From: Candidatus Physcocola equi
GTDB taxonomy: Bacteria; Bacteroidota; Bacteroidia; Bacteroidales; Paludibacteraceae
Assembly: GCA_018064855.1 (NCBI GenBank)
Contig: JAGHUM010000043.1
Location: 1-64,000, forward strand
Direction: 5' to 3'
DNA: 64,000 bases
In this document: positions 14,732-36,796 of the stretch, piece after piece
How the letters are laid out: each line of letters starts with the position of its first letter
How positions within the stretch are numbered: the first letter of the stretch is position 1
The notes under the pieces: generated by a model
What the model was told of the DNA's origin: nothing
Databases searched by the model: none
Seen by the model: only the letters and a program-made list of their open reading frames with translations
Program-made: the position numbers and the translations under genes

Positions 14732-14779
14732 CTTGAATTATTGTATTCTCACGTCGTTCAACAGTAAAAAAGTGCGGAA

Positions 14780-16192: not shown

Positions 16193-16207
16193 ACACATCC
16201 ATTGATC

Positions 16208-16993: not shown

Positions 16994-17014
16994 ACCATTT
17001 TTGAAATTACATCA

Positions 17015-20605: not shown

Positions 20606-22186
20606 TTAGATTTTTTCAATTTGGCAGGTGTGTACCTTCGTGTCCTTGTCGTAGTTGATGCCGACAAAGAGGACATCGCCATCGTATTGGTTGAGCGCCT
20701 GACAGTAGTTCTTTTCTTTGATCTGATTGATGGCGCTTTCCGCTGTTTTGTTGCACTTCAACTCGATCACCAACGCTGGGATGTTTGGCAGATATGGAAT
20801 CAAGACCAAATCGGCATAGCCCTTGCCGGTAGGGAGTTCCTTGATTAACGTGTATCGGGTGTTGGCGTAGAAATACGCCAGACAGATGGCACTCTGGAAA
20901 CAATGTTCGTCGTTGTAGGTGAGAGGACTGGTGACCTCGGTGTGGGCGGCTTCGAGGGAAGCTGCTACAGCATCGGCATCACCATTGACGGTGGCGTCGA
21001 GGAGTTTCTTGGAGGCGTTGACGATGGACATCAGTTTTTTGTAGTCGGGACTTAATCTTACTGATTTAATCCACTCTTGACGTACCTCCTCATTCGGGAT
21101 GTGGCAGGTTTGGTCTTTCCGATTGTAGCATAGATATCCCAAATGGATGAGGTAGGTGAACACATCGTCTTTCGACTCAAAGCAGTCCATCGTGTTTTTG
21201 AATGTGCCCACTTCGACTTCCACGCTTTCGCCGGAAATCATTTTGACAACATCCTGTCTGATTCCCTCAAAATCCATTAGTATATAATCTCTCAACGCTT
21301 CAAATGAGCCGGTGGCAGACCAGTGGCTGCCAAACTCGTTGTACATCACCGCTCTGACAATGGACAAAGGATTGCAGACGCTGACAGTGTCGTTCATCTT
21401 GTAACCATCATACCAGCGGATGCACTCTTCATAATCCGCATGATATATGTCGCAAAGATTTTTCACTTCCTCTTCTGTGAAGCCGATAGCACCAGCAAAC
21501 TGTCGGGGGGTAATCATGGTGTATTCCCAAAACTCGTTGAGTTTGGACTGGACTTTGTCCCTTACAATCGGCATGATGCCGGTGATATACGCCAAAGCAA
21601 TAGCAGGGCGGAGCGTAGTGTCTTTGAACAAACCGTTCAAAAAACTCAGATATTCTTTAAATAACTTTTCAGGAACCTGCTCACGAACCAAGACGTCGTA
21701 TTCGTCTATGATGATGACGAATTTATCGCCGGTTTCTCCATAAACCTTTGAGATGTTTGTTGCTATGGAACTTCCATTGTCAAACTCAATATCAGGGAAG
21801 ACTTTTCTAAATTCTTTCAGAAGGACATCGCTGATATACTTCATCAAAATATCGGTCTTGTCTTCATTTATGGATTTTTGATACCACCCATTCATGTCCA
21901 ACTTGATCACATTGAACTTATTGAGATACCTGTCATAGTCAGCCACCTGTCCGATTTTCATCTTGGAGAAAATCTCGCGAGTATCGCAACCTTTTGAGTA
22001 GTAGGCGGAAAGGAGGTTGCCCACCATGCTCTTTCCGAAACGGCGTGGGCGGGACATGCAAACAAAATTTGATTGTCCGCATACCAATTTGTTTGTTTCT
22101 TCAATAATGAGGGTTTTGTCAACATAGATTTGACTATTCAACCCCATTTGAAACGCATCCGCGTTTGGATTCAGATACAGGCCCAT
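20606..22186 (-). CDS. AAA-ATPase-like / PD-(D/E)XK nuclease family protein (second copy)
   Basis: This 526-aa relative of the gene at 3228-4835 has the same layout. The N-terminus has IYVDKTLII and MSRPRRFGKSMVGNLLSAYY, with VIIIDEYDVL as the Walker B-like segment. The C-terminus carries GKGYADLVLIPYL then ALVIELKCNK, the D...E-x-K nuclease signature. The role is unknown, as for the family. It is transcribed alone, opposite to the preceding lipoprotein gene, and is bracketed by a 17-bp direct repeat. Its start is preceded by a TATTTTTG -7 box. Confidence 0.85.
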   Translation of the reverse strand: MGLYLNPNADAFQMGLNSQIYVDKTLIIEETNKLVCGQSNFVCMSRPRRFGKSMVGNLLSAYYSKGCDTREIFSKMKIGQVADYDRYLNKFNVIKLDMNGWYQKSINEDKTDILMKYISDVLLKEFRKVFPDIEFDNGSSIATNISKVYGETGDKFVIIIDEYDVLVREQVPEKLFKEYLSFLNGLFKDTTLRPAIALAYITGIMPIVRDKVQSKLNEFWEYTMITPRQFAGAIGFTEEEVKNLCDIYHADYEECIRWYDGYKMNDTVSVCNPLSIVRAVMYNEFGSHWSATGSFEALRDYILMDFEGIRQDVVKMISGESVEVEVGTFKNTMDCFESKDDVFTYLIHLGYLCYNRKDQTCHIPNEEVRQEWIKSVRLSPDYKKLMSIVNASKKLLDATVNGDADAVAASLEAAHTEVTSPLTYNDEHCFQSAICLAYFYANTRYTLIKELPTGKGYADLVLIPYLPNIPALVIELKCNKTAESAINQIKEKNYCQALNQYDGDVLFVGINYDKDTKVHTCQIEKI

Positions 22187-22377: not shown

Positions 22378-22472
22378 ACTTTTTCATCATCGGTAAAAGG
22401 TTAACCAGTTGGTGGTATAAGGTATTTTATGGGTATGGATTTCGTGGGCGGTGTTGTCGGCATCGCGCCACT

Positions 22473-22772
22473 TTACTTATTCAGTCTTTTGCGTTCAAAA
22501 ACAAACAGCCCAATCATCAGAATTGCGACCGCAATATCCACCACATTCCACATGGTTTTTCCCAAATGAATCTTCACAAAAGGTTGGAACAAGACGGCCA
22601 GCGACACAAATGTCACTGCCCATCCTGTCTTTTCTTCTTGAAATGAACGAAATGCCAACACCCCAAGAAACACCATACAGAAATAACGCACTAAGACGTA
22701 ATAACCATACGGCATCGAAAACAAGCAGAGCAACAATAATGCTGCGGTTATAAGATAAAGGTGTTTAATCAT
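22473..22772 (-). CDS. Small four-helix membrane protein (DUF6804-like)
   Basis: The 99-aa protein is almost entirely hydrophobic, with about four membrane helices, and has the segment SMPYGYYVLVRYFCMVFL then FQPFVKIHLGKTMWNVVD, which resembles DUF6804 proteins. The function is unknown. It follows the dynamin-like gene by 34 bases on the same strand and could be read as the last gene of that run, but may be independent. Confidence 0.6.
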   Translation of the reverse strand: MIKHLYLITAALLLLCLFSMPYGYYVLVRYFCMVFLGVLAFRSFQEEKTGWAVTFVSLAVLFQPFVKIHLGKTMWNVVDIAVAILMIGLFVFERKRLNK

Positions 22773-22806
22773 ACATGCCTTACTAACAGTATATTTATTG
22801 GGAAAC

Positions 22807-24447
22807 TTAATTATTTGTTACAGAAGACAGCCATGCTGACAATCTAACATCATAAGCAGCCAATGCATTTAATGAACTTTCTAAAGATTCAACCAACTTT
22901 CTTCTTTCCGCTTTCAACATGCTCATTTCAATGAAATGAGGTGCAAAATTCTTATAATATTCTTCAACTGGGTCATACATTTTATTTAATTCTTCAAATG
23001 AGTTGGTTATAAAATTCTTTAGTTCATTTTTTGCTTGTATAAAATCGTCTTTTGCTTTCTTTTTGCGCCAAAATAAAATTACATCGACCACAACATTTAA
23101 AGCGAGAACTATTTTTGAGAAATTCTTTGCTATATTAACAGCTTGCCATGGCTTAAACTTAAAAGAAGGTAAAACAATATTTCTGATTCCCTTCACCATA
23201 TCTCCTGTCATATTTACACTCTTCAATAGTTTTGTTCCTTCTCCAATAATACTAATAGAAGAATCTAATATACCCAAATTATTTTCATAAGAAACAGCAG
23301 CCAGACTTATAGAAGAGCTATTGTTATTGCCACACTCTGCAAGAAGTGATTCTATCTTTTGAACAAAAATACCACCAGTAACTTTTCCGTTTTCTGTTCC
23401 AATTTCTTCATCTAACATGCTAGAAAACGCCTCCATACCAGTATTATTGATTGTATGTATTAAATTCTGCCGATAAGATAGTAAACTATCAATCAATATT
23501 TTTTTATTATGAAGTAATTGCTTATTCAAATCATTTAATTCAAACTGAATATTCTCATGAGTTTTTTTTGCATTCAACAATGCTTTTTTAACTTGTTCAG
23601 AAGAGGTTCCTATCATTCCTTTAACAAGTTTTGTGATATCTCTGAACGATGCCATTATCGCATTTTTGTTTAACGATGCAATATCACTTGAACGATATGT
23701 ATTTTGAACTGCAGTTCTCAACACATTTATATGAGACCTACGAAGGTATTCATCAGGTTTCCCAAACCAATAAGCCAAACCTTTGCCTTTGGGATCTGCA
23801 GAAATACATATCACATTCATATTAGCTGCCTCAGTTGCGGTAAGACCTATATTTCGAGAAAGACCATCCACTAAAAACTTCTTTTTAATAGAACTTCCTC
23901 TTTGAAAATCGGATTCGTCTAATAGATCAAAACCGGCTTCATCCATCTTGTTGATTACGAATATTGTAGAAGATAGTTTAGACAAATCTTTTAATACCCA
24001 TTTCAACTTTTCAGAATGACTTTCTTTTACTGGGTCAACTGCATCAGTAACATACAAAACAATATGCGCTTCAGATATGTAGCGTTCTGTTATTGCTGAA
24101 TACACAACGTTTTTCCCCATAACCTCTTTTTCCTTACTACCAAAGAGACCTGGAGTGTCCACTATTTCTACCCCTCCGTCTATCTTATAAAACGTCAACT
24201 CATCCGATGACTCATCAAGGTCTATCTTCATATTCTCATGCAATCTTCCTAACATACCAGCAGCTGTTGTTGTTTTACCGTCACAGGTAGTACCAAGGAG
24301 AACTATTCTAAGAGTTTCGGTAGAAAGCAGTTTTTTTACACTCTCAATCTTCAATTTTATTTCACTAAGATCCAAATTATAATCTTTTTCTCCATCAAAA
24401 ATAATGGAAGACAATTCTGTTATTGCTTCATTATAAGATTTGCTCAT
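22807..24447 (-). CDS. Dynamin-like GTPase A (canonical G motifs)
   Basis: The 546-aa protein has a complete GTPase domain: P-loop GTTCDGKTT (52-60), VDTPG (G3) and INKMD (G4). The C-terminal half is helical, with coiled-coil stretches and a hydrophobic paddle-like segment (FSKIVLALNVVVDVILFW) followed by basic residues, as in bacterial dynamin-like proteins such as LeoA. These proteins assemble on and remodel membranes. It is encoded 12 bases after a second, different GTPase (24460-26160); paired dynamins often act together. It belongs to the AT-rich minus-strand run that begins with the JAB/E2/E1 genes. A role in phage defence or membrane repair is inference. Confidence 0.8.
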   Translation of the reverse strand: MSKSYNEAITELSSIIFDGEKDYNLDLSEIKLKIESVKKLLSTETLRIVLLGTTCDGKTTTAAGMLGRLHENMKIDLDESSDELTFYKIDGGVEIVDTPGLFGSKEKEVMGKNVVYSAITERYISEAHIVLYVTDAVDPVKESHSEKLKWVLKDLSKLSSTIFVINKMDEAGFDLLDESDFQRGSSIKKKFLVDGLSRNIGLTATEAANMNVICISADPKGKGLAYWFGKPDEYLRRSHINVLRTAVQNTYRSSDIASLNKNAIMASFRDITKLVKGMIGTSSEQVKKALLNAKKTHENIQFELNDLNKQLLHNKKILIDSLLSYRQNLIHTINNTGMEAFSSMLDEEIGTENGKVTGGIFVQKIESLLAECGNNNSSSISLAAVSYENNLGILDSSISIIGEGTKLLKSVNMTGDMVKGIRNIVLPSFKFKPWQAVNIAKNFSKIVLALNVVVDVILFWRKKKAKDDFIQAKNELKNFITNSFEELNKMYDPVEEYYKNFAPHFIEMSMLKAERRKLVESLESSLNALAAYDVRLSAWLSSVTNN

Positions 24448-24459
24448 AATTCATTAGTA

Positions 24460-26160
24460 TTAGATTTGATACATGCTTTTAACAATTGCTAAAACTTTAT
24501 ACACATTTGTAGCCTCTTTATTTATTTGATTTTCAATATTTTTCTGATATCTATCTAATATTTGGAAAGGACCATTCTGGAGAGAATCCGACAAACTTTC
24601 CTTGGCTTCTGATTTTGCTTTATTAATAGCTTTTCGTACTTCATCTTTTGCCTTAGTTTTACGCTCACTTGAACTGTCTCCAAAAATTAGACCTGCTAAT
24701 CCTCCCACTATTGCTCCAATACCAGTTCCAACTGGGCCAAAAAAACTGCCTATTGCAGCACCCGTGCCTGCAGTTCCTAATGTTGAAACTGATTGCATAA
24801 CAAAATCCCCAAGCCCATAACTTAAGGCATCTTCCGCATTATATGTATTAACATTTGTATCAATTCCATCAGAGGATGCATTTATATAGCCAACATTAAT
24901 AAATCTCATTTCTCTACGAAGAGTCTCCAATCTTTCATGAAGAGAATGCATCTCTGTTCTAAAAATCGAATTGATATCTTCAGTAATCGCTCTTCGACAT
25001 TTCTCTTGATCTGATGATGCGTATTTTTCTAAAATATCTGCATCTACATCACCACAAAGATCATCGTTCAACTCTCCAAAACGATTTTCTATTGATAAAT
25101 TACATTTACTTTCTATCGTTCTTTTCTCATCAGAAATTGCCGACATCATAGATTGCAAGTATCTCCCCATCTCTGACATGGCTGATTCCAAATCGGATGT
25201 AGGTATCTGCCTAATTTTGTCCTTCAATCTTAACTTAAGGCCATATAACTTTTGCTGGTTTGCTTGTTGTATCATTACAGGATATGATTGAGAAGCCCCC
25301 TTAACAAGTTGTTCTATTGCACTAAAACGGCTGAAATTGAAAGTATTTTCTGCACTTCCAAAATAAGAGATCAACTTATTTTGATACATTATAAGATCCT
25401 GTCGTCTAGGTGAAAATGAACCTTTAGCACACATTGCAAGTTGAGCCTGCATTATCACATTCCCTTTATAAACATCTCCCAAAATTCTCTTAAATTCAGC
25501 CTGTATAAGTAAGTCATTCTGTTTTACTAATTCAGTAAGAAGAGTTTCTCTTTCTTCTTCCTCATCATAATTACTCACTCCACCACGTACATTTTGAATT
25601 GAATAAACATATACCCATTGTCCTAAATAATTCTTGATTTTCTGAGCAGTACCAATGTCTGGTTTCTTATTATGTCCCTGCACATAAAAAACAAGATGCG
25701 CTTTATGAAGAGCATCCTTAATAACATCTCTAAACTCATTTTCATTACCTTCTATACCTGGAACATCTATCAAAGTGAATGGAACACCATTCATATTTAG
25801 TTTGTATTCATGGTAATCTCTTGTAAAATCAGACGAGCCATCACCAACAATTAAGCCATCATTACCTGGCATGTAATTTGGATCATAAAGAATACGAAAA
25901 GTTTCTATTATCGTACTCTTCCCTGCATTTGTTTCCCCAAAAAATGCAATCACCAAATTATCCCAAGCCATGCTATCAATCGCAAGTATTTCATTGGTAA
26001 TACTTTCAATTTCTTGTTTGATGACTGGAATGATTCTATCTCTTACTTCAACGCAACTATTATGATGAACAGGTATTGCATCAAGTGCGTTATTACAGTT
26101 TACCAACTGTTTCAAAAAATCTGAATATTGTGCTTTAGCACCCAAATAGTTATTGTTCAT
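24460..26160 (-). CDS. Dynamin-like GTPase B (degenerate G4, Gly-rich membrane segment)
   Basis: The 566-aa protein has P-loop GETNAGKST (75-83) and G3 DVPGIEG, with Val in place of the usual Thr. Where NKxD is expected the sequence reads YSIQNVRGG, so base recognition may be altered. Residues ~450-495 form a glycine-zipper-like hydrophobic segment (GTAGTGAAIGSFFGPVGTGI and GAIVGGLAGLIFG) that probably inserts in membranes. Long helical stretches surround it. It lies 12 bases after the DUF4407 gene and 12 bases before dynamin-like gene A, so all three should be co-transcribed. The pairing recalls LeoB/LeoC-type arrangements. Confidence 0.75.
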   Translation of the reverse strand: MNNNYLGAKAQYSDFLKQLVNCNNALDAIPVHHNSCVEVRDRIIPVIKQEIESITNEILAIDSMAWDNLVIAFFGETNAGKSTIIETFRILYDPNYMPGNDGLIVGDGSSDFTRDYHEYKLNMNGVPFTLIDVPGIEGNENEFRDVIKDALHKAHLVFYVQGHNKKPDIGTAQKIKNYLGQWVYVYSIQNVRGGVSNYDEEEERETLLTELVKQNDLLIQAEFKRILGDVYKGNVIMQAQLAMCAKGSFSPRRQDLIMYQNKLISYFGSAENTFNFSRFSAIEQLVKGASQSYPVMIQQANQQKLYGLKLRLKDKIRQIPTSDLESAMSEMGRYLQSMMSAISDEKRTIESKCNLSIENRFGELNDDLCGDVDADILEKYASSDQEKCRRAITEDINSIFRTEMHSLHERLETLRREMRFINVGYINASSDGIDTNVNTYNAEDALSYGLGDFVMQSVSTLGTAGTGAAIGSFFGPVGTGIGAIVGGLAGLIFGDSSSERKTKAKDEVRKAINKAKSEAKESLSDSLQNGPFQILDRYQKNIENQINKEATNVYKVLAIVKSMYQI

Positions 26161-26172
26161 ATATTTTCAGTT

Positions 26173-27678
26173 TTACTCTGTAGTAGTTTGATTTGTGTCA
26201 ACTTGGTCAGAATGTGTTTGTTCTAGACTTGACTGCTGAGAATCATTCTGGCCAGAACTTGTCTGATCTGTATTTGTTTGCTGTGAATTAATTTGTTCTG
26301 AACTTGAAGACATCGTATTTCTTGATGTTTGATTTGACTCAGACATATTTGTACGTATATAAGCAGAAGGATTTGCTCTAATTTTTTCCAATTCCTCTTC
26401 TCTCCACGCATCTATCGCAACCTGCAAAAGTTCTGCTTGTGCCAAAGCAATTCTGTCAAGGACGTCTTTATTTGCCTTAACTTCAGCCTCTAATCTATTT
26501 CTGTTTTTTTCTGTTGATATTTGGACTTCAGTATTGATATGATCATTTATGTCTGAAATAATTTTATCAGCCTTTATACTTATTTTGTGAACTTCGGATT
26601 GTAACATTTTATCATAAGCCCCAAAAGAAACCATCATTTTAAACAAAGTTGGAACAATTTCAATTATCACAAAAAGAAGCATTACCATTAACCTCGCAAT
26701 GCACAATGTGTGACTTTCTTCCCAACTTGTTCCTATATACAAAGCTTCTAACTGAGCAGCAAAATGATTTAATCCTTGAGTTGTGCTTATTTTTGAATCA
26801 TTTATCTCATCTATTTGTTTTTGAAGATGAGCCAAATCGCTATTGACCTGATCAATATCAGATTGAATACGTTTCCTGTTTTCTGTTATTACACTTTTCA
26901 GTTCTAAAGCTTCTTTGTTTGCTTTACTGGTGAGTTGATCCACCTCCCTTTGCTTAAAAGCTTGTTGTCTTTCCAATTCCTTTGCAGCAGGCCCTCTTCC
27001 AGCCTTATTAGTTACTCCAGTGCCATAAAGTTCCTTATACAACTTATCATTAATGGCATTCAACTCTTCATTTGCCTTTGCCAGTTGTTTTAATGTTTCT
27101 GGTGTTCCTGCTTGTTGGTTAGTCAATTCTTTAGAAAGAGAATCCTTTCGGGAAATTAAAGCAATTTTTTGAATCTCATAATCATTTTTTTGTGCGTCAA
27201 ACTTTCCATCTGCCTTTGCCTTTACAGTTGGAAGATTCTCGCTAATCACATCGTCGAAAATCTTCATTTCTATTGGAGTTGAGATTACCACACCTAAAAA
27301 AATTGCCAGAATAATTCGTGGCAAACCTCCTTTAATTTCTTCCCAACTGATTGTATGTTTTCCATCAGAATACATCGTATTAACCATAAACCTATCAAGG
27401 TTAAAGATTAACGCTCCCCAAAAAATACCGAACGGAATTGAATAATATAATGAATCAAAAATAAAATTCAATGCATATGCACCTGAAATAGATGCCATTA
27501 ATGCCGTGAACAAAATAGTTCCACCAGTTCCTGCATATTTGGCATAATCTGGAGGACACTGGCGAAGTACTTTTTTGTTTACCCCTGCACATGTCCATAG
27601 GAACTCGTTTATTAGTCCCCCCCATTTGATTTCTTTGTCTTCTAAATTTTCTATATTTATAGCGCTCTGTTGTTCCAT
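26173..27678 (-). CDS. DUF4407 membrane protein with Ser/Thr/Gln-rich tail
   Basis: The 501-aa protein has three membrane helices in the first ~140 residues (GTILFTALMASISGAYALNF, SIPFGIFWGALIFNLDRFMV, LPRIILAIFLGVVISTP), a long coiled coil (~150-300), a fourth helix (LMVMLLFVIIEIVPTLF) and another coiled coil. This is the DUF4407 layout, of unknown function. The last ~55 residues are a low-complexity tail in which Ser, Thr, Gln and Asn repeat as NSQQTNTDQTSSGQ. Its start overlaps the end of the Ig-like gene by 22 bases, indicating coupling. It could be the membrane anchor of the system. Confidence 0.8.
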   Translation of the reverse strand: MEQQSAINIENLEDKEIKWGGLINEFLWTCAGVNKKVLRQCPPDYAKYAGTGGTILFTALMASISGAYALNFIFDSLYYSIPFGIFWGALIFNLDRFMVNTMYSDGKHTISWEEIKGGLPRIILAIFLGVVISTPIEMKIFDDVISENLPTVKAKADGKFDAQKNDYEIQKIALISRKDSLSKELTNQQAGTPETLKQLAKANEELNAINDKLYKELYGTGVTNKAGRGPAAKELERQQAFKQREVDQLTSKANKEALELKSVITENRKRIQSDIDQVNSDLAHLQKQIDEINDSKISTTQGLNHFAAQLEALYIGTSWEESHTLCIARLMVMLLFVIIEIVPTLFKMMVSFGAYDKMLQSEVHKISIKADKIISDINDHINTEVQISTEKNRNRLEAEVKANKDVLDRIALAQAELLQVAIDAWREEELEKIRANPSAYIRTNMSESNQTSRNTMSSSSEQINSQQTNTDQTSSGQNDSQQSSLEQTHSDQVDTNQTTTE

Positions 27679-28712
27679 AATGATGAAATTGAATTTGTTA
27701 TTCTTTTTGTCAATGATTTACTAAAATCTTCCATTTTTTGCCACCAATCTTTTCTTGGCGTCAATTCTAACTGATGAAAAGGAATTGATGGAACATATAT
27801 CTCACTTTTTATCTGTCGGAAATCAGGAAATTTTCCAGTATCAACATTAATGTCAACTTGCAATTGTTTCTGTTCGAAATGCATTTCAACATTCAAAGTC
27901 TGATTAATTTGCGGTGTTGGCACCATTATTGATCGAATAAGAGGTAATGGATACATCCTTATTCGTTGATGATACTCTTGAACTCCAAAAACGTCAGTAA
28001 CTTTTAACGTGAATGTTTTTTCCTTATCACAATCAACGATTTTCTCTCCTTGATGTTCCACAATGCCAAAATCCGTCAATTCTACTTCTGATGCATTTTG
28101 AACATTCCAAGAGAGTTTAATAGGGACTCGTGGCAAAGTCACATTTTTATCGACTTCAAATTGCACAACAGAAACCTCAAACACACTGATTGTAACAATG
28201 TGTTTAAAAACTCTTCTGCCATCAAGACCCACGACTTCAAAAATATAGTCTGTCGTATTATCAGGCGACAACTCACGTTCGGATGTCAAATTGATTTCCT
28301 CATTTTCTCCAGAAATCAAATTAGCAGACAGTGCATTCTGAATATTCCACTTTATTTTACACTTCTCTCCTTTTCCTTTTCGAAGTTTATCCGTATTTTG
28401 TGTTATATAGAACGATGGAGTATCTAACACCTTTATTTGCAGAGATGAAGTTTTCTGCGTGCCCGCATTTTCTATACGAAGAATAAAACTCTGAAGCCCT
28501 GCATCTGACAGTTGATAACTATAAAAAGAATTTTCTACAGGAACCTCTTTGTCGTTTATGAATATTTTGGCTGCATCCTGGACTTCCCAACGAAAAATAA
28601 CAGATTCATCTTTATATCTGACAGGATTCCCATCAAAGGTGAAACTGATTATTTGAAGATCAAATGGCACATCTTCAAACATTCCTGTGCGTTCATTATA
28701 TCTTAAAGCCAT
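27657..28712 (-). CDS. Three-repeat Ig-like protein with shared N-terminal tag
   Basis: The ATG at 28712 gives MALRYNERTGMFEDVP, which aligns with the N-termini of two other proteins of this run; an ATG at 28724 would add MSLS. Three beta domains of ~85-95 residues follow, each with a W-x-V/I-Q-[ND]-A core: IFRWEVQDA, IKWNIQNA and LSWNVQNA. They resemble Ig-like domains. There is no signal peptide, so it is probably cytoplasmic. The C-terminal ~90 residues are amphipathic (WWQKMEDFSKSLTKRI). The likely role is a scaffold or adaptor in the complex. The stop overlaps the DUF4407 start. Confidence 0.65.
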   Translation of the reverse strand: MALRYNERTGMFEDVPFDLQIISFTFDGNPVRYKDESVIFRWEVQDAAKIFINDKEVPVENSFYSYQLSDAGLQSFILRIENAGTQKTSSLQIKVLDTPSFYITQNTDKLRKGKGEKCKIKWNIQNALSANLISGENEEINLTSERELSPDNTTDYIFEVVGLDGRRVFKHIVTISVFEVSVVQFEVDKNVTLPRVPIKLSWNVQNASEVELTDFGIVEHQGEKIVDCDKEKTFTLKVTDVFGVQEYHQRIRMYPLPLIRSIMVPTPQINQTLNVEMHFEQKQLQVDINVDTGKFPDFRQIKSEIYVPSIPFHQLELTPRKDWWQKMEDFSKSLTKRITNSISSLWNNRAL

Positions 28713-28755
28713 GGACAGAGACAATAATATAACAATACATTACAATGCACAATCT

Positions 28756-29220
28756 TCAGATATCACCCATCATATTATTTATGCGCTTATTTCTATATAA
28801 ATCAGAAGTTCCTTCGTAAATTAACCGAATATCACTTTCATAATAATAAATAAATATTGAACCATTGGATAAGAAGAAAGAAGCATGTGAACTTGTTTTA
28901 TCCTCTCTTATTTCTGGTGTTTTGCAATATTTCTTACACAAAGCAGAATACAAGTCTTCAAATAATTCTGTATTTGCTGGTTTTATATTGATCCTGATGC
29001 GTCGAACATCTCCATCTCTTTCTTCCAAACTAATTCTCGCATTAGGGATTCCGGCAAATGTACCTATTAAATCCCCCGTATTCTTTTTTACATACCCCCT
29101 TTTCAGGAACTGTGATTCGACAAATGCTTTCGAGCCTACCATTTCTACGCCGGCACATACCATGAAAGATTTTTTTGAATCTTCAAATTCTCCCGTTTTT
29201 TTATTAAATTCAAGTGACAT
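28756..29220 (-). CDS. 154-aa hypothetical protein with shared N-terminal tag
   Basis: The protein starts MSLEFNKKTGEFEDSK, the N-terminal motif shared with the Ig-like and 64-aa proteins of the run. The rest looks like a compact alpha/beta fold: VRRIRINIKPANTELFEDLY then ALCKKYCKTPEIRE and SIFIYYYESDIRLIYEG. I do not recognise the family. It lies 9 bases after the ClpB-like gene, so it is co-transcribed with it and might be a cofactor or chaperone adaptor. Confidence 0.65.
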   Translation of the reverse strand: MSLEFNKKTGEFEDSKKSFMVCAGVEMVGSKAFVESQFLKRGYVKKNTGDLIGTFAGIPNARISLEERDGDVRRIRINIKPANTELFEDLYSALCKKYCKTPEIREDKTSSHASFFLSNGSIFIYYYESDIRLIYEGTSDLYRNKRINNMMGDI

Positions 29221-29229
29221 AACTTATTT

Positions 29230-31827
29230 TTAATTTTGAAATATAAATACTCCATCAACACAGTCAACATTTATTGTTTTATCCTTCTCCACCTGGTGCG
29301 TCAGTAATTTTAGAGTCAACCCATTTACAATATTGTCATTAATTGCCCTCTTTACAGGTCTAGCACCCATAGAAGTATCAAAACTCAATTCCGTCAATCT
29401 GTTAATAACATTTTGTGAAAATTCTATCAACAAATTATTCGAAAGAAGATTATCCTTTAAACGATTCACCTGAAGATTTACGATTTTTTTTATATCCTCC
29501 TTTTGAAGCGGTTTAAACATTACAATATCATCTATTCTATTGACAAACTCCGGAGAAATCGAATGCTTCATGAGTGATATAATCTGATTTTTTATCATAT
29601 CCTCCTCCTGAATGTTTCCCTCAATATCAACAGAATCTGAAATGATATCTGATCCAATATTTGAGGTCATTATGATAATTGTATTTTTAAAATTCACCAC
29701 ATGCCCCTGGCCATCGGTCATACGTCCATCATCCAAAACCTGCAATAGTGTCTCAAAAACTTTTTTGTGTGCTTTTTCCACTTCATCAAGCAATATGACA
29801 CTATATGGTTTACGTCTCACCGCCTCTGTCAATTGTCCGCCTTGTTCATATCCAACATAACCTGGAGGTGCACCAAACAAGCGAGAAACAGAATATTCTT
29901 GCTGATACTCACTCATATCAATTCGAATCATCATGTCTCTACTATCAAACAAATACTCCGCAAGAGCTTTGCATAGTTCCGTTTTACCCACACCTGTGGT
30001 ACCCAAGAAAAGAAAAGACCCAATTGGCTTTCTTTGATCACCAAAACCCATTCGGTTTCTACGAATTGATTCAGAAACTACCTTTATCGCGTCATTTTGA
30101 CCTATAACCGAATTATGTAACACATCTTCAATATGCAACAATCGTTCGCTTTCATCCTGTGTCAGATTTGACATTGGTATTCCCGTCCAAGAAGTAACCA
30201 CTTTCATTATGTCTTTTTCATCCAAAGCGGTTTTCAAAAGAGGATTTTCTATGCTGCCGATTTCATCAAAGAGTTCCTCCACCTGCCTTCTTAACGAACT
30301 CTCTCGTCTTTGCAATTCCACCACCTCTCCAATTCTATTCCTTCCATGCAACTCTGCTTCCTCTATATGAATTTGCAATCGTTGTAGTTGTGATGTGAGT
30401 TCTTGATATTCTGTCAACCTTCTACATTCATTCTGCCATTTGGCATTAAGTTCATTCTCTTTTTCCTGTAAATCCGCAATTTCTACAGACAAGCAATCTA
30501 TTTGCTCTAACGATGCCGGACTTTCATCTTGTATCAAAGACTCTCGTTCTATCTCTTTATTCATGATTTGACGCTTTATCATTTCCAAATCATGAGGAGA
30601 TGAGAATCGATCAATACGCATACTTGAAGCAGCTTCATCAAGCAAATCAATTGCCTTATCCGGTAAAAATCTATCCGAAATGTATCTGCTTGACAATTTC
30701 ACAGCAGCAACTATCGCATCATCTAATATCTTAATATGATGATGATTTTCAAAACGAGACTTGATTCCGCGCATTATCGTAATCGCAGAATCTTCATCAG
30801 GTTCATTTATCAATATTTTTTGGAATCGACGTTCAAAAGCTTTATCCTTTTCAATATATTCACGATATTCATCAAGAGTTGTTGCCCCTATAATATTCAA
30901 GCCTCCCCTTGCCAATTCTGGCTTAAGAATATTAGCAGCATCCATTGCACCTCCATTTTTCCCGGCTCCAATGATTAGATGAATTTCATCAATAAACAAA
31001 ACAACATTTGGATTACTTTTTACATCAGTAATAACCTGCTTGAGTCTATGTTCAAATTCACCTTGCATTTGTGCTCCCGCAATTAAAGACGCCAAATCTA
31101 ATGAATAAAGAATTAAGTTCTTCAATTCATCAGGCACATCACCTCTAACTATTCTATGAGCCAATCCTTCAACTACCGCAGTCTTACCTGTTCCAGGTTC
31201 CCCTATCAAGATGGGATTATTTTTAGTTTTTCGAGATAGAATCTGTAAAATACGCCTTATTTCTTCATCTCTGCCTATAGCAGGTTCTATTGTTCTGTCC
31301 TCCGCTAAAACATTTAAGTTTACTCCATACTTTCTAAGATTTGGAAGGTTTTCCTCTTCGAATCGCGACGGTTCAGACGACAAGTCATCATCATGATGAT
31401 ATAAACGTATAGCATGCTCAATTTTTTGAGCAGTGACACCAAACTGTATCATCAAATCCTTCACGGGATTAGAGACACGAAAAAATGCCCAAAAGACAAA
31501 CTCCAAAGCAACAACATTAAATCCTTCATTCTCAGCCAACGTAGTAGCTTCTTCTAAAATTGACTCTAGTGTCGCTGTAAATTCAGGATCTAATACTCGA
31601 TTATGTTCAATTAAACGCAAAGAATCTCCAATAGCTGAAAAAAAAGCATTTTTATCAACTTCCATGGTATCTAACAAAAAAGGAACCATGTCATTACCTT
31701 CTTGAAAAACTGCAACCATCATCACCTGAGGCTCTACGCTTGCATACTGGCATTCTTTTGTTAGAGACACAGCTTTCAATAATGCACTTCGCGATTTATT
31801 TGTAAACTTTGTGAAATCTATTGACAT
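29230..31827 (-). CDS. Divergent ClpB-like AAA+ disaggregase
   Basis: The 865-aa protein has the full ClpB layout: a Clp N-domain (1-~145), NBD1 with GEPGTGKTAVVEG (209-221) and VVLFIDEIH, a coiled-coil middle domain (~410-520), and NBD2 with LGTTGVGKTELCKALAEYL and SVILLDEVEKAHK. NBD2 pore loop GAPPGYVGYEQGG keeps its Tyr, but NBD1 pore loop reads GAQMQGEFE, with Met where ClpB normally has Tyr. No ClpP-binding loop was seen, so it should unfold or disaggregate rather than feed a protease. Its place directly after an E1-like gene suggests it acts on modified proteins. It is clearly not a housekeeping copy given its AT-rich context. Confidence 0.85.
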   Translation of the reverse strand: MSIDFTKFTNKSRSALLKAVSLTKECQYASVEPQVMMVAVFQEGNDMVPFLLDTMEVDKNAFFSAIGDSLRLIEHNRVLDPEFTATLESILEEATTLAENEGFNVVALEFVFWAFFRVSNPVKDLMIQFGVTAQKIEHAIRLYHHDDDLSSEPSRFEEENLPNLRKYGVNLNVLAEDRTIEPAIGRDEEIRRILQILSRKTKNNPILIGEPGTGKTAVVEGLAHRIVRGDVPDELKNLILYSLDLASLIAGAQMQGEFEHRLKQVITDVKSNPNVVLFIDEIHLIIGAGKNGGAMDAANILKPELARGGLNIIGATTLDEYREYIEKDKAFERRFQKILINEPDEDSAITIMRGIKSRFENHHHIKILDDAIVAAVKLSSRYISDRFLPDKAIDLLDEAASSMRIDRFSSPHDLEMIKRQIMNKEIERESLIQDESPASLEQIDCLSVEIADLQEKENELNAKWQNECRRLTEYQELTSQLQRLQIHIEEAELHGRNRIGEVVELQRRESSLRRQVEELFDEIGSIENPLLKTALDEKDIMKVVTSWTGIPMSNLTQDESERLLHIEDVLHNSVIGQNDAIKVVSESIRRNRMGFGDQRKPIGSFLFLGTTGVGKTELCKALAEYLFDSRDMMIRIDMSEYQQEYSVSRLFGAPPGYVGYEQGGQLTEAVRRKPYSVILLDEVEKAHKKVFETLLQVLDDGRMTDGQGHVVNFKNTIIIMTSNIGSDIISDSVDIEGNIQEEDMIKNQIISLMKHSISPEFVNRIDDIVMFKPLQKEDIKKIVNLQVNRLKDNLLSNNLLIEFSQNVINRLTELSFDTSMGARPVKRAINDNIVNGLTLKLLTHQVEKDKTINVDCVDGVFIFQN

Positions 31828-31862
31828 TTTTCAACGGATAAAATAATTAATATCTTAATTTT

Positions 31863-33128
31863 TCATTCCTCAACAGACAATCCCGACATGTCTAGATTAA
31901 TCATATCACCATACTTACTTCTTATTGTTCCACCCTCATCAAGCAACACCTCACGATCTGAACATAAACTACAATTATCATTTTTTGGAATATGTGCACC
32001 ATACCACCTCATAATAGTAGGTTTTGAGCCTGCACCAGGCATAGCAGCCCAATTGGCATGTCTTCTTTCCCTACGATTTGCCCACATGTAATAATCATAA
32101 ATCAGTTCATTTTCAAGACATGAAATACCAGATTCCACTCCACGAGATAGTTCCATGAGAGCTAACTTTACCATCATATTACAGATTGGTTCAATATCTG
32201 CTGACAAACCGACCTGGACAAACGCATCTGCATCTCGTTCTGATACATATGCTGCAATTTGACCATTACGACGAGCACTTGCGACATTGGAAACCTCACC
32301 TTCTGACAATCCAAACCACTGATTTCCGATAAGGCAACAATAACAAGGGCCACCAGGTCTATATCTGAACACGTCGCCACCTTCAGCTCTTGTAACAGCC
32401 CTTCCGAACAAACCTACCTTTTTTTGATGTACAAGAGTTGATGAAAGATTGAATCGGCTTTCGTTATTGTCAGTTGCACATATTACAATATCAGCCTTTG
32501 CAACTTCATCTTCCATCAAATCAAGGTGCTCATTTATATTTATGGCATATTTTTTTACACAGGCATACGGATTTTTCCCTTTTATTGATTCTTCAATCAC
32601 ATCTGTTTTGAGACGACCTAAATCTTTGACCGTAGCTGTATGCCTTGCTAAATTATGGAGTTCAACTCTGTCAAAATCAAACAATGAGAACTCTCCAACA
32701 CCTGCTTTAGCTAATTCAATGGCGATTTGGGATCCAAAACTTCCTAGGCCAACAATCATTACCCGTTTCTCTTCTAAAACATTCACCTCCAAGATTCCTT
32801 TGTTTCTTGAATACAATTCTTGCTTTTTAGGAATATAATTGACCTCTACTTCGAAGGATTTGGAATGTACCTTTGCTGTTATTTCGTCATTTTGTTTAGA
32901 CACATACACAACATATAAATACTCCAAACCCTCATTGGCGTCATTATCTTCTTTCAAGAATAAAACATCATTACAAGATCCAAAAGAATGTTTTATTTTG
33001 TCAGTGTGGATATGCACAACATTCTCACCTTCCCACTCATACGCCTTCCCTACAATGGAAAAATCAGAAGAGTTGAAGAAAAACTCCAACTCTTCCTTGC
33101 TCATATAGATTGTTTTTTTCATAATCAT
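31863..33128 (-). CDS. E1-like (ThiF/UBA-family) adenylating enzyme
   Basis: The 421-aa protein has an N-terminal domain of ~115 residues that I do not recognise, then a ThiF/E1 Rossmann domain: VMIVGLGSFGSQIA (127-132 loop), FDFDRVELHNLARH (the DxDxVExxNLxR ATP-binding motif) and VICATDNNESR. A zinc site is formed by CYCC (262-265) and CSLC (386-389), as in MoeB/ThiF-type enzymes. E1 enzymes adenylate the C-terminus of a ubiquitin-like protein and pass it on via a thioester. Its ATG overlaps the stop of the upstream 64-aa gene by four bases; a second ATG at 33122 is possible. E2-like and JAB genes lie just upstream. Confidence 0.88.
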   Translation of the reverse strand: MIMKKTIYMSKEELEFFFNSSDFSIVGKAYEWEGENVVHIHTDKIKHSFGSCNDVLFLKEDNDANEGLEYLYVVYVSKQNDEITAKVHSKSFEVEVNYIPKKQELYSRNKGILEVNVLEEKRVMIVGLGSFGSQIAIELAKAGVGEFSLFDFDRVELHNLARHTATVKDLGRLKTDVIEESIKGKNPYACVKKYAININEHLDLMEDEVAKADIVICATDNNESRFNLSSTLVHQKKVGLFGRAVTRAEGGDVFRYRPGGPCYCCLIGNQWFGLSEGEVSNVASARRNGQIAAYVSERDADAFVQVGLSADIEPICNMMVKLALMELSRGVESGISCLENELIYDYYMWANRRERRHANWAAMPGAGSKPTIMRWYGAHIPKNDNCSLCSDREVLLDEGGTIRSKYGDMINLDMSGLSVEE

Positions 33129-33319
33129 AAAGCAAAACCCTCACTCGTCATATCTGTTACAATCATACCATCACCTTGCGTCGAACCCTGTGCAACAGTC
33201 TCAAACTCCCCAGTTGTCGGATTAAAAACTAATTCACTCATAGTTCCAGTTCCGCTTCCCGTTCCTTGTCCACCTTGGATTCGAACATCTTCTCCAATTT
33301 CATTTAAACCTTTTGCCAT
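33125..33319 (-). CDS. 64-aa Gly-rich protein with shared tag, in the usual ubiquitin-like gene position
   Basis: The product opens MAKGLNEIGEDVRIQGGQGT, continues with a GSGTG linker, then has MSELVFNPTTGEFE, the motif shared with two other proteins of the run, and ends MIVTDMTSEGFAL. An internal ATG before SELVF would give a 38-aa form. It is too short and too Gly/Ser/Thr-rich for a full beta-grasp fold and has no C-terminal GG. Its stop overlaps the E1 start by four bases and it follows the E2-like gene, exactly where a ubiquitin-like modifier is usually encoded. It may be a modifier, precursor peptide or substrate; this is inference. Confidence 0.6.
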   Translation of the reverse strand: MAKGLNEIGEDVRIQGGQGTGSGTGTMSELVFNPTTGEFETVAQGSTQGDGMIVTDMTSEGFAL

Positions 33320-33338
33320 ATTCTATATATTTTAATAT

Positions 33339-33764
33339 TTAACTTTGATGACTTAAATAATAATCCATGTCTTTGCCCGTTTTAAGATGAAGTTCATACA
33401 TATTCAACCACAACGCACATTTTATATATACTTTAAAAAGAGATACCATAGGGGTCCATGAACTTGATCCATAATGGCATATACGTGTATATCCATGTTC
33501 GGTAGGCAACGTATGCATCGCTGCACTTGCATCGTTCATAGATCTACCACTTTTTGTTTGTAACATTTTTGTAACAAACGCATGGGGAAGTTGATTTGGG
33601 AATCCCTTTAAATCTATACGTATGGTATAAACTTTCCCAATATTTGTTTTTACTGGCATCAAAACATAAGGTTCACTGGTACTCATATCCTTAAATACAC
33701 ATTGAACCATAGGCATTTCTTTTTGCAGTACTTGTTTTTCTAAATTCAATCTTTCAGGAGTCAT
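33339..33764 (-). CDS. E2-like (UBC-fold) conjugating protein
   Basis: The 141-aa protein shows the pattern of bacterial E2-like domains. A beta segment YTIRIDLKGFPNQLPHAFV recalls the UBC strand plus the YPxxP turn. It is followed by GYTRICHYGSSSWTP with a candidate catalytic Cys96, and a helical end CALWLNMYELHLKTGKDMD that resembles the W-x-x-x-YE-x-x-L-x-TG ending of CBASS- and Bil-type E2 proteins. It sits between the JAB gene (4-base gap) and the 64-aa gene. It would accept the activated modifier from the E1-like enzyme. Confidence 0.7.
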   Translation of the reverse strand: MTPERLNLEKQVLQKEMPMVQCVFKDMSTSEPYVLMPVKTNIGKVYTIRIDLKGFPNQLPHAFVTKMLQTKSGRSMNDASAAMHTLPTEHGYTRICHYGSSSWTPMVSLFKVYIKCALWLNMYELHLKTGKDMDYYLSHQS

Positions 33765-33768
33765 ACCA

Positions 33769-34812
33769 TCAAATTACATTAATATTTAACATTTTATAAT
33801 AAGTTACAAATGATTCATAAATATTGTCCCCACATTCCCATTTTACATGAGGTTCTATCACGTCACCATTTGATTTTTTAAAGATTGGGGCACTAAGGGG
33901 AAACTTATTCCCAAAATAAATTTCTATGTTATCATTCCCCGATATAACAACCAAATGAACTTTCTTTTCTTCATCCAAAAAAGGTTTAACTTGTGAAGTT
34001 GCGCCTCCTTGGTTTTTCAAAAAATCAATTATATTCTTTAAAACTTGATTGTTATTCTTATTATTCAACCAATACTCTTCATCATAATTTGGAGTAACCA
34101 TTGATGCATTGCCCATTGCCGATAAGATGTAGTTTGGTCCATAACTTGCCTTTGTTGTTCTAGGATGGCAAATCAAACCTCGTAAACTATTATCTATTAA
34201 ATTTCTATATGGACTTTCTATCTCAATAATTCTCCATGGCACATGCTTATATTGAGTGATACTATTAATATTGAATGAAAAAGCATTTAACGTTGAACGA
34301 GCGCTCCTATCACAATTTCCTATACATAAGAGAAAATTTTGGAAATTGTGACGTTGTATTCCATGAATGACAGTTAAAGCATCATGTCCACTTGGTTTAG
34401 CTAAACCTAATTGGTGATGAGAATGCCATTCTCCAATGTATCTAAGTCCATACTTTCGAGAAATTTCATTATAGACTGTCTGTAGATATTCTGTATCTTG
34501 ATTAAAAAACGTAACTTGATGATTTGCACTCTTTCCAGGACCAATTGCATAGCAAACAACAGCCACACCATCCTCTTGAAGGAAACCAAACAACTGACCT
34601 CCAGTTTCAATATTTGGATAGTCTCCTATACACCTACTTATATAATCCATTTCACTGCGATATATCACAGCCAATGGTGCGGTTTTAGATGCCTGTCCAA
34701 TTACAGAAGCCCCCTCTAATAAACCTGATGTTTGATTTTCAATCTTATTTATCTGTTTTTGATCCTTATTCGGTTTAACTTTTAATTTGTTTTTTTTCCC
34801 TTTTCGTCTCAT
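33769..34812 (-). CDS. JAB/JAMM peptidase with UBC/RWD-like C-terminal domain
   Basis: I prefer the ATG at 34812 (MRRKGKKNKLKVKPNKDQK, 347 aa); an ATG at 34914 would add 34 residues that look non-conserved. Residues ~45-175 are a JAB domain with NIETGGQLFG (Glu69), EWHSHH (His130, His132) and PSGHD (Ser141, Asp144), the zinc metallopeptidase site used by deubiquitinases. The spacing between HSH and S is one residue longer than usual. Residues ~280-347 (KVHLVVISGNDNIEIYFGNK then FPLSAPIFKK) look like a second, catalytically dead E2/RWD-type fold. It heads the ten-gene run and would trim or remove the modifier. Confidence 0.8.
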   Translation of the reverse strand: MRRKGKKNKLKVKPNKDQKQINKIENQTSGLLEGASVIGQASKTAPLAVIYRSEMDYISRCIGDYPNIETGGQLFGFLQEDGVAVVCYAIGPGKSANHQVTFFNQDTEYLQTVYNEISRKYGLRYIGEWHSHHQLGLAKPSGHDALTVIHGIQRHNFQNFLLCIGNCDRSARSTLNAFSFNINSITQYKHVPWRIIEIESPYRNLIDNSLRGLICHPRTTKASYGPNYILSAMGNASMVTPNYDEEYWLNNKNNNQVLKNIIDFLKNQGGATSQVKPFLDEEKKVHLVVISGNDNIEIYFGNKFPLSAPIFKKSNGDVIEPHVKWECGDNIYESFVTYYKMLNINVI

Positions 34813-35025
34813 GGCATCATCTGTATTTAAATAAAAATAATAACAAATTTTTTCAATAAATGTATTTAACATTACAACAAGCGATGAACAAAAGGTGTGC
34901 AAAACATTTTTCATTTTAACGACAATATAGATTATTTGTAAATCACCATTTGTAATTGTTTCTCATCTAAACATGAAGTTCCAAAATTTCTATTCACATT
35001 TAGTTGTCAACCTTCCGTCCAGACA

Positions 35026-35064
35026 CAAAAAAGCGTGGAGCCTGACTATTGTCCGCTTCACGCT
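35026..35064 (-). terminator. Terminator of the 6S-like RNA gene
   Basis: On the minus strand AGCGTGAAGC pairs with GCTCCACGCT (one G-U) and is followed by TTTTTTG. It lies directly after the closing stem of the RNA at 35062-35260. Confidence 0.75.
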
Positions 35065-35260
35065 CTGAGGCCTTGGAACTGCCCGATCAATCGAAAACGA
35101 ACAACGTGCAAGTCCCACGCCGATACTTATAAATATCCCAACAAAGCATACGCACTCTCCGTGCGTATGCCCGCTGAGGCATACTATAAATAGCAAACCC
35201 AAGGGACGTTGACCGTTGCATTTTGTTCTGATTGAGCTGAAGTGTTCCAAGTTTCAGAGC
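35062..35260 (-). ncRNA. ssrS: Rod-shaped structured RNA, candidate 6S RNA
   Basis: Read on the minus strand, the ends GCTCTGAAACTTGGAAC and GTTCCAAGGCCTCAGAGC pair to close a ~199-nt rod. Inside, TCAATC pairs with GATTGA, CAACG with CGTTG and GTCCC with GGGAC. The apex is a perfect 10-bp hairpin GCATACGCAC / GTGCGTATGC. A Rho-independent terminator follows. A long, imperfect, unbranched rod with a central open region and this length is the architecture of 6S RNA, which binds RNA polymerase. There is no coding frame of note. A -33-like TTTG with a TACTATAC box 20 bases on lies just upstream. The structure is seen; the 6S identity is inferred. Confidence 0.55.
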
Positions 35261-35264
35261 GAGA

Positions 35265-35474
35265 AACAAATGCGTATAGTAAACGCCTTATATGTCTTTT
35301 TCAAAAGTCGTCCTTTTGAAGTATATCCCCGCCCACCCTACTCTGCTTTCGCAGTTTCGGCGTGGACTTCGATAAAGCAAATATAATAATAATTTTGAAT
35401 AATGATTGTGATGTGTAAGATTTTTTTATTTTTTTTCGGGAGCCACAATGGAATGACGTATTTGATAATCCCCC
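35265..35474. other. Non-coding gap upstream of the structured RNA
   Basis: No gene is seen. It holds an inverted repeat TTCAAAAG...CTTTTGAA (35300-35320), which overlaps the probable -33 region of the RNA gene. A further AT-rich stretch lies next to the DUF4143 gene stop. Confidence 0.5.
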
Positions 35475-36767
35475 TCATTCAAACTGTGCCGCCATCGCAT
35501 ACAGTGGTATATTGACCATCCATTCTTGATCCCGATAATCAGACATTGACAACCTCACGCCTTTAAGACCTTTGTATTTGTTGACAAAGGCTTTCAAACT
35601 TTTAGACTTCAGATTTTCTTCCGCCTTTACCTCAATGGGAAAGACTTTCCCCTCTTTTTGAACCAAAAAGTCAATTTCACCAGAAGAATTCTCTGCCGAC
35701 CAATAATAAAGAGAGTCAACATTTCCCGACAATTGTTGGCAGACATATTGTTCGGTCAATGCCCCTTTAAACGTAGAAAATAGCGTATCTTCTTCCACCA
35801 AAATCGAACTATTCAACTGAGACATAGCACACAAAAGCCCCACGTCTAACAAGAACAATTTAAACGTTCCAAAATCTTCAAACGCCACCAATGGCAATTC
35901 TCCACTTTTTGTACGTTGGACCTTACGGATTAATCCTGCATCAGTAAGCCATTGGATAGCCAGTTCAAATTCTTTTGCTCTAGCACCCTCTTTCAAAACA
36001 TTATAGACAAAACGCTTATTTTCTTTGGAAAGTTGTCCCACGATAGAATCCCACACCATTTTTATTCTTGGGACTTCCTGCCCAGGTGCATGCTTGCTAA
36101 AATCCGAACTATAGGCATTGAGAATATTTAATTGTACTTTTCTGACTTTACTCATATCCATTGTGTTGATATAAGTCTGAACAGCCTCTGGCATACCTCC
36201 CACATAATAATAGCTTTTAAGCATATCTACGAACTGATCTTTTATTACAGGCAGAAGACTCCAATCATGCTCGTCCAATATTTTCAGCCACATATCCTTA
36301 CCATTTGCCATCAAGAATTCCCTAAAAGACAAAGGTTCCAAATCAAGAAAATCAACCTTGCCAACTGGGAATGAATCACCACTGTGCATACTGATGCCCA
36401 GAAGAGATCCCGCGGCTATGATAGGCAGATGTCTCGCATCCTCACAAAAATACTTCAAAGATGTCACACCACGCTTCGCAGCCTGAATCTCATCAAAAAT
36501 AAGTAACGTATCTTCTTTTATGACTACGTCTTTACGCAAGCTAATAGTACGTAGAATTCGGTCAATATTAAAATCATTCTCAAACACCTTTTGAAGAAAA
36601 GCATCTTCTTCAAAATTAATATAGACCCAATTATTCTCGAATTGATTTTTTGCGAAGTCTTTAGCAATCCATGTTTTCCCAACTTGTCTTGCACCTCGCA
36701 TAATCAAAGGTTTTCTGGTATCACTATTTTTCCAGTTCACAAGTTCTTTATAGGCTAATCTTTCCAT
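35475..36767 (-). CDS. AAA ATPase with C-terminal DUF4143 (PD-(D/E)XK-like) domain
   Basis: The ATG at 36767 gives MERLAYKELVNWKNS, the usual family start; an ATG at 36779 adds four residues. The AAA domain has Walker A GARQVGKTWIAK and Walker B TLLIFDEIQAAKRG. The C-terminal DUF4143 part has SSGEIDFLVQKEGKVFPIEV then KAEE, a nuclease-like E/D...E-x-K core. Such genes are numerous in Bacteroidetes and their role is unknown. It is a single-gene unit with tandem palindromes across its promoter, suggesting tight control. Confidence 0.87.
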   Translation of the reverse strand: MERLAYKELVNWKNSDTRKPLIMRGARQVGKTWIAKDFAKNQFENNWVYINFEEDAFLQKVFENDFNIDRILRTISLRKDVVIKEDTLLIFDEIQAAKRGVTSLKYFCEDARHLPIIAAGSLLGISMHSGDSFPVGKVDFLDLEPLSFREFLMANGKDMWLKILDEHDWSLLPVIKDQFVDMLKSYYYVGGMPEAVQTYINTMDMSKVRKVQLNILNAYSSDFSKHAPGQEVPRIKMVWDSIVGQLSKENKRFVYNVLKEGARAKEFELAIQWLTDAGLIRKVQRTKSGELPLVAFEDFGTFKLFLLDVGLLCAMSQLNSSILVEEDTLFSTFKGALTEQYVCQQLSGNVDSLYYWSAENSSGEIDFLVQKEGKVFPIEVKAEENLKSKSLKAFVNKYKGLKGVRLSMSDYRDQEWMVNIPLYAMAAQFE

Positions 36768-36788
36768 AAAACGCACCATTTAACGATA

Positions 36789-36796
36789 CAAATATA
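36789..36796 (-). promoter_or_regulatory. Putative -7 box (TATATTTG) of the DUF4143 gene
   Basis: TATATTTG on the minus strand fits TAnnTTTG and lies about 22 bases before ATG 36767. The duplicated palindrome at 36796-36851 begins directly upstream, over the -33 region. Confidence 0.6.

Follow-up and report, generated by a model that had tools for sequence, protein, structure and literature searches.

What does a bacterial E1/E2/JAB set conjugate when none of the genes around it matches a ubiquitin-like (Ubl) family? The question is raised by a locus of the gut bacterium Candidatus Physcocola equi (Bacteroidota; Paludibacteraceae), lying within positions 1 to 64,000 of contig JAGHUM010000043.1 (assembly GCA_018064855.1), the stretch analyzed here and referred to as the window. 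A run of minus-strand genes in the window encodes a JAB isopeptidase-like protein, an E2-like protein, a 64-residue protein (here called S), an E1-like adenylating enzyme, a ClpB-type AAA+ protein, a 154-residue protein, an immunoglobulin (Ig)-like protein, a DUF4407 membrane protein and two dynamin-like GTPases. A preliminary description, made from the sequence of the window alone, treated all ten genes as one system. Here we examine which of them belong together and what the conjugated protein may be. The best explanation, held with moderate confidence from comparative sequence analysis, is that JAB, E2, S and E1 form a ubiquitin-like conjugation module in which S (∼60 residues, without a β-grasp) is the modifier, accompanied by partner proteins sharing a sequence motif with S and, in the clade of the window, by ClpB.

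A four-gene core and its small constant protein

A search with three aligned E1s as query, covering one genome per species (84,980 species), yielded 54 E1 loci, mostly in metagenome-assembled genomes (MAGs), so that single odd taxon placements may be binning errors. The loci are spread over the Bacteroidota, Cyanobacteriota, Fibrobacterota, Kiritimatiellota, Verrucomicrobiota, Spirochaetota, Chlorobiota and Caldisericota, with one Bacillota MAG. JAB and E2 lie immediately upstream of E1 in nearly all 54 loci, and the minimal loci contain JAB, E2, S and E1 alone; by sequence comparison, JAB-E2-S-E1 is a recurrent core with a sporadic distribution. The JAB/E2/E1 set named in the preliminary description is genuine and conserved, with the active sites of E2 and JAB intact. 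E2 retains H84 and C96 in 54 of 54 loci, JAB retains E103, H164, H166, S175 and D178 in 50 of 50 (a complete set of JAMM residues), and E1 retains its ATP-site residues (GxGxxG, D151, R162, K174 and D220) together with a CxxC/CxxC pair in 55 of 55.

The gene for S lies between those for E2 and E1 and mostly encodes 56-86 residues, more where it is fused or repeated. S was found by profile in 44 of the 54 loci and as a divergent open reading frame (ORF) at the same position in 9 more, the E1 of the remaining locus (L065) lying at a contig end. As judged from these sequences, S is the only constant gene besides JAB, E2 and E1, a role missed in the preliminary description, which had listed the 64-residue gene in its gene order. 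Among 344 Bacteroidales genomes S occurs in two, that of the window included, and it was never seen without E1. Pairs of S relatives show far fewer nonsynonymous (dN) than synonymous (dS) substitutions (dN 0.04 against dS 1.55; dN 0.065 against dS 0.67), the signature of purifying selection, which indicates that S is a real protein.

S consists of an N-terminal helix, a motif LxF[DN]PxTGE[FL] predicted to form a hairpin (motif 1), and a C-terminal block ending in [DE]GF[AF]. Nothing follows this block in 12 loci, one residue follows it in 10, and 2-5 residues that differ between relatives follow it in 13, while 8 have a long extension or fusion. In-frame fusions of S to E1 are present in six loci, placed on three distinct branches of the E1 tree (the fusion having arisen at least three times); S is tandemly repeated in L066 and duplicated in L015. 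At the level of sequence, an end with a variable tail, fusions and repeats is the pattern of ubiquitin-like precursors. Variant forms include the Fibrobacter S proteins (L030 9702-9929, L063 9765-10013), which have a second DGFA/EGFA block near the N-terminus, and the S of L028, in which a second degenerate motif stands behind the GFA block. In L021 an extra ORF of the 117-residue class (9468-9818) with two motif-1-like stretches lies between E2 and S.

No convincing match to S was found in Pfam, NCBIfam or the PDB. S is predicted to be a helix-hairpin-helix, and its sequence aligns with ubiquitin at an hhalign probability of 0.1%, and with Pup at 0.1% over a single column. The ideas that S is a β-grasp protein or a Pup were dropped for want of sequence support.

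The fold of E1 was compared using a model of a natural S-E1 fusion from Spirulina subsalsa (L061; mean predicted local distance difference test score (pLDDT) 79.7, predicted template modeling score 0.58). The best matches of the model are ThiF (Z 28.3, root-mean-square deviation (rmsd) 2.2, 232 residues aligned) and MoeB (Z 27.8, rmsd 2.4, 230 aligned), followed by UBA5 and then MccB (Z 25.9, rmsd 3.5, 238 aligned). Matches reaching the N-terminal domain of Atg7 span residues 64-486 with an rmsd of 15-16, and are only suggestive of an Atg7-like layout. A BFVD search with the same model returned ThiF/E1-type and unspecific matches. The AlphaFold2 model of JAB (mean pLDDT 85.7) resembles an archaeal Rpn11 homolog and CSN5 (Z 17.0, rmsd 2.2-2.5, 145-155 aligned). 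JAB residues 287-375 are predicted to form a helix, four strands and a helix, and may be an inactive E2-like (RWD/UEV) domain, the list of fold matches being filled by the JAB domain. Several cyanobacterial E1s (L055, L056, L057, L058, L059, L061, L064 and L065) have terminal sequences (DDGFFG, DDNFFG, EDNIFA and the like) that resemble the C-terminal block of S and may represent a pseudo-substrate or another modifier end.

The resemblance of E1 to MccB, in sequence as well as in fold, recalls a different chemistry, in which S would be a precursor like those of ribosomally synthesized and post-translationally modified peptides, E1 would adenylate the C-terminus of this peptide, and JAB would be the peptidase removing its leader or tail. 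Radical SAM/SPASM maturases (and YcaO in L037) are indeed encoded ∼230 bp behind the module in four loci, following a motif-1 membrane protein (L037 12245-19192; L039 and L040 12894-18217; L042 12210-15438). However, most loci have no such maturases, S has a conserved C-terminal block and no variable core, and E2 with its invariant Cys and His would be left without a role. We regard a peptide product as very improbable.

A conjugation module with S as modifier is supported both by the presence of S as the sole extra gene in essentially every locus, the minimal ones included, and by its precursor-like layout (a variable tail of 0-5 residues, fusions and repeats). In the proposed sequence of events, JAB would cut S behind its (D/E)GF(A/F) block and so remove the short tail or the fused E1. 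The exposed C-terminus would then be adenylated by E1, which would hand S to Cys96 of E2 (E1 itself having no universally conserved thioester cysteine). E2 would attach S to its targets, from which JAB could later remove it.

Motif 1 and the companion genes

Motif 1 is shared between S and genes downstream of E1. Of 133 downstream genes, 16 (20 by a looser pattern) have it within their N-terminal 45 residues, compared with none of the 589 other genes in the same loci (Fisher test, kinship ignored: 8e-13 for the strict and 6e-16 for the looser pattern). Compared without the motif, 28 tagged proteins form 13 groups whose bodies have no detectable mutual similarity. These include Ig-like proteins (10), multi-pass membrane proteins (7), an FGE-domain protein and small proteins that have a hydrophobic segment at the C-terminus; three members (from L037, L039 and elsewhere in the membrane group) were admitted by eye on a degenerate motif. 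The carriers in the window are S, the 154-residue protein and the Ig-like protein. Elsewhere in the 2.99-Mb genome the pattern occurs in two places, deep inside unrelated proteins, and in six other genomes, considered for motif-1 proteins that might act in trans, the exact pattern has one or two matches each, one in the genome of L061 being an extra match (counts of the pattern, not per gene). Chance occurrence was rejected on the difference between 16 of 133 and 0 of 589 and on the rarity of the motif in the whole genome.

With nothing but JAB, E2, S and E1 in the minimal loci, motif 1 is most likely read by one of the enzymes (JAB, E2 or E1). The hairpin of S would serve as the recognition element for this enzyme, and the membrane-anchored and Ig-like partners, with their permanent N-terminal copy of motif 1, would recruit the same reader and thereby bring the machinery to the membrane.

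The same motif can be read in another way, with S as an adaptor that is itself never conjugated. Motif 1 and the C-terminal block would then dock onto E1, E2 and JAB (or inhibit them), the motif-1 proteins would tether the enzymes to the membrane, and the modifier would be some other protein, either of the host or as yet unrecognized. This would fit the in-frame S-E1 fusions of six loci, the presence of motif 1 on proteins that lack the GF(A/F) block, and the S-like ends (DDGFFG, DDNFFG) of cyanobacterial E1s. Against it, there is no other constant gene that could supply the modifier, and the C-terminal block with its variable tail, like the tandem S of L066, looks precursor-like. We consider an adaptor unlikely, though it deserves serious attention.

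Several companion genes also recur beside the core. ClpB lies behind E1 in 17 of the 54 loci; with the window this makes 18 E1s, all within one strongly supported clade of 27. The order JAB-E2-S-E1-ClpB-Ig-DUF4407 is repeated in L015, L026, L028 and L029, and the order JAB-E2-S-E1-Ig-DUF4407, without ClpB, is found in L046 (Chryseobacterium, on the opposite side of the E1 tree), giving five other loci in which the Ig-DUF4407 pair stands beside an E1 module. The link of ClpB, the Ig-like protein and DUF4407 to the E1/E2/JAB set, drawn in the preliminary description from their adjacency in the window, is thus supported by recurrence in other genomes. The genome of the window encodes a further full-length ClpB relative (48% identity) and a single copy of DUF4407. 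The ClpB of the run scores 1016 bits against the NCBIfam equivalog model TIGR03346, below its cut-off of 1232, and on sequence it is a divergent paralog of the ClpB type. Its restriction to one E1 clade and the second genomic copy mark it as a companion, which, in the clade of the window, would unfold S-marked or motif-bearing proteins near a putative Ig-DUF4407 membrane complex. Flavobacterial loci encode a classical AAA ATPase at the same place behind E1, which fits the unfoldase theme. In L013, the closest relative of the window, a radical SAM gene (over the cut-off of TIGR04133) interrupts a stretch of broken or duplicated ClpB pieces, behind which stands a full ClpB (11373-17691).

Certain observations weigh against S as a conjugated modifier with this machinery. 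Most modifiers end in Gly, which the GF(A/F) end of S does not resemble, and divergent members have Gly, Pro or Asp at the third position of this end. Given the E1-S fusions, S may not require a free C-terminus. Beyond the conserved CxxC/CxxC pair, E1 has no universal cysteine (the best candidates are kept in 41 and 31 of 55), and hence no universal catalytic one, leaving a conserved E1 thioester unsupported. ClpB is confined to one E1 clade and absent elsewhere.

The gene run and the dynamin pair

The ten minus-strand genes, their tight spacing and the AT-rich DNA around them, as first described, were borne out by re-checked ORFs and base composition, with some changes (Table 1). The run comprises eleven co-directional genes, from 34914 down to 22473, with intergenic gaps of -22 to +35 bp. 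The added gene, DUF6804, lies 34 bp past LeoA; JAB may start at 34914 as well as at 34812, and for the Ig-like gene the probable start is an ATG four codons downstream of the listed TTG. The run lies in an AT-rich island (22400-36800) with a GC content of 35.5%, against 46.8% in the rest of the window. Profile searches of Pfam, NCBIfam and PADLOC gave no family match for the 64-residue, 154-residue and Ig-like proteins. By eye, ATPase-like genes (DUF4143-like and AAA/nuclease-like) stand on both sides of the island (35475-36779 and 20606-22186), and a 127-residue gene resembling DUF6804 lies behind DUF4407 in L046.

Table 1. Features of the minus-strand gene run, with positions in the window and the evidence for each assignment.
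Feature	Position	Strand	Evidence
JAB (JAMM) isopeptidase-like, 381 residues	33769..34914	-	PADLOC JAB 1.4e-16; Pfam Prok-JAB 1.7e-4; JAB domain ∼residues 82-230
E2-like conjugating enzyme, 141 residues, predicted catalytic Cys96 and His84	33339..33764	-	PADLOC E2 3.9e-5
S, 64-residue candidate modifier: helix, motif 1 hairpin, EGFA block and one tail residue (L)	33125..33319	-	Profile and position across E1 loci
Motif 1 of S (FNPTTGEFE)	33200..33226	-	Motif pattern
C-terminal conserved block of S (EGFA)	33131..33142	-	Coordinates read from sequence
E1-like adenylating enzyme, 421 residues; 4-bp overlap with S stop	31863..33128	-	ThiF 9.3e-31
ClpB-type AAA+ protein, 865 residues, second dedicated copy	29230..31827	-	TIGR03346 1016 bits, under cut-off
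154-residue protein, motif 1 at N-terminus (MSLEFNKKTGEFED)	28756..29220	-	Motif; no family match
Ig-like protein, motif 1 at N-terminus (MALRYNERTGMFED)	27657..28724	-	Body family also in 9 other E1 loci
DUF4407 membrane protein	26173..27678	-	DUF4407 6e-66
LeoBC-like dynamin GTPase, adjoining module	24460..26160	-	PADLOC 3.5e-88
LeoA-like dynamin GTPase, adjoining module	22807..24447	-	PADLOC 2e-123; NF041922 2.9e-125, over cut-off
DUF6804 small membrane protein, last of run, membership unsure	22473..22772	-	6.4e-29

The dynamin pair is LeoA/LeoBC, a separate adjoining module (module 2). LeoA scores 419 bits against the LeoA dynamin model NF041922 (cut-off 325), and both GTPases strongly match the families of the LeoA/LeoB/LeoC bacterial dynamins (PMC4159319), with the difference that those of the window lack motif 1 and show no conserved association with E1 loci. 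The pair stands beside E1 in none of the 54 other loci, which rules the dynamins out as members of the conserved module. Of 296 genomes sampled from the phylum, two encode a LeoBC relative: that of the window and one (L073) in which a 7.8-kb contig carries a LeoBC-LeoA pair but no E1; no LeoBC match was found among plasmids. Because the pair adjoins no other E1, the ten-gene run is two modules in one AT-rich island, module 1 extending from JAB, E2, S and E1 through ClpB and the 154-residue and Ig-like proteins to DUF4407. Of the ten families expected in the preliminary description to recur together, JAB/E2/S/E1, ClpB, the Ig-like protein and DUF4407 do so; the dynamin half proved to be a junction of two loci, and its joining to the conjugation set was not borne out.

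The preliminary reading of the ten genes as a single system against phage or envelope damage, with the dynamins as effectors, is accordingly improbable. It draws on the ten co-directional genes with gaps of at most 35 bp, and on E1 relatives near a CBASS set (L067), a caspase-domain gene (L053) and NB-ARC ATPases in three cyanobacterial loci (NB-ARC/STAND-type, on the opposite strand: L057 5630-7027, L058 483-1865, L061 6779-8149). Against it are the dynamin pair, found beside no other E1 and without E1 in L073, the lack of any E1 relative in IMG/VR, and the one fixed chromosomal place of the module in Barnesiella; the last two observations mean that defense is not the sole fit. A phage-defense role of the conjugation module is plausible from its context. 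For Bub operons, which are similar in kind, phage protection has not been shown (PMC13373217). A phage or viral origin of the module was rejected: IMG/VR contains no relative of the E1, the matches in phage records are only E1-like, and L068 has an E1 of another group. This group, a different system from JAB-E2-S-E1, includes L010 (8406-12022), where a gene whose product starts like JAB precedes E1, and L068 (1-7371, a human gut scaffold filed as phage), where E1 is followed by a 1423-residue protein and a recombinase.

Relation to known systems and significance

Pup is a modifier of ∼64 residues that works with an AAA+ unfoldase and is ligated by a glutamine-synthetase-like enzyme. S resembles it in its short length and its AAA+ partner, and differs in being encoded with E1, E2 and JAB and in having no sequence similarity to Pup.

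The described bacterial E1/E2/JAB systems use a modifier of the ubiquitin fold or, in the cyclic oligonucleotide-based antiphage signaling system (CBASS), a whole enzyme. The protein that CBASS Cap2 conjugates, cGAS, has no β-grasp or ubiquitin fold and is attached by way of its C-terminal Gly or Ala (PMC10097602), a precedent for a modifier without the ubiquitin fold; in both cases E1, E2 and JAB are present, and conjugation of S would be the counterpart here. Cap2/Cap3 consist of an E2-E1 fusion and a JAB protein, whereas in the window E1 and E2 are separate genes, with a 64-residue candidate modifier and ClpB, Ig-like and DUF4407 proteins attached. Profile searches found no CD-NTase, the mark of type II CBASS, among the genes of the run. 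A distant CBASS-linked cousin is L067 (3002-9372, a Bradyrhizobium barranii plasmid), in which E1 begins with a degenerate S-like stretch and JAB-E2-E1 lies next to a SMODS-type CD-NTase ending in FGA, SAVED-Cap4 and TIR; the CD-NTase may be the modifier there.

Bil (BilABCD) and Bub likewise combine bacterial E1, E2 and JAB with a dedicated modifier gene, for which S is the candidate here. In Bil, the modifier BilA has two ubiquitin folds, and the E1, BilD, is a pseudodimer that includes a Cys domain (PMC11354881); unlike these, S shows no sequence similarity to ubiquitin, and the E1 of the window has one adenylation domain and no universal thioester cysteine. The operon types 6a-6e of Iyer, Burroughs and Aravind (2006) are also sporadic combinations of JAB, E1 and E2-like genes, and the 64-residue motif protein, ClpB, Ig-like and DUF4407 genes are not listed among the rows of that survey covered here (PMC1779556). 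No description of the gene set, S or the motif was found in the open literature, subscription papers and preprints lying largely outside the scope.

We propose more tentatively, at slightly less than an even chance, that S founds a new class of mini-protein modifiers outside both the ubiquitin fold and Pup, conjugated by E1 and E2 and trimmed by JAB, whose hairpin has been copied onto other proteins as an N-terminal tag and is read by shared machinery, with ClpB as the unfoldase in one clade. If S is conjugated, it would be a new modifier class among bacterial E1/E2/JAB systems, and E1/E2 chemistry would be independent of the ubiquitin fold. Conjugation would be joined to a ClpB-type unfoldase at the membrane, and S, with its portable recognition motif, would give engineering a minimal tag of natural origin. 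For Candidatus Physcocola equi, the locus points to a gut bacterium equipped with a full set of ubiquitin-like tagging genes; the likely tag, 64 residues long and unlike ubiquitin, would, if confirmed, be a new kind of bacterial protein tag.

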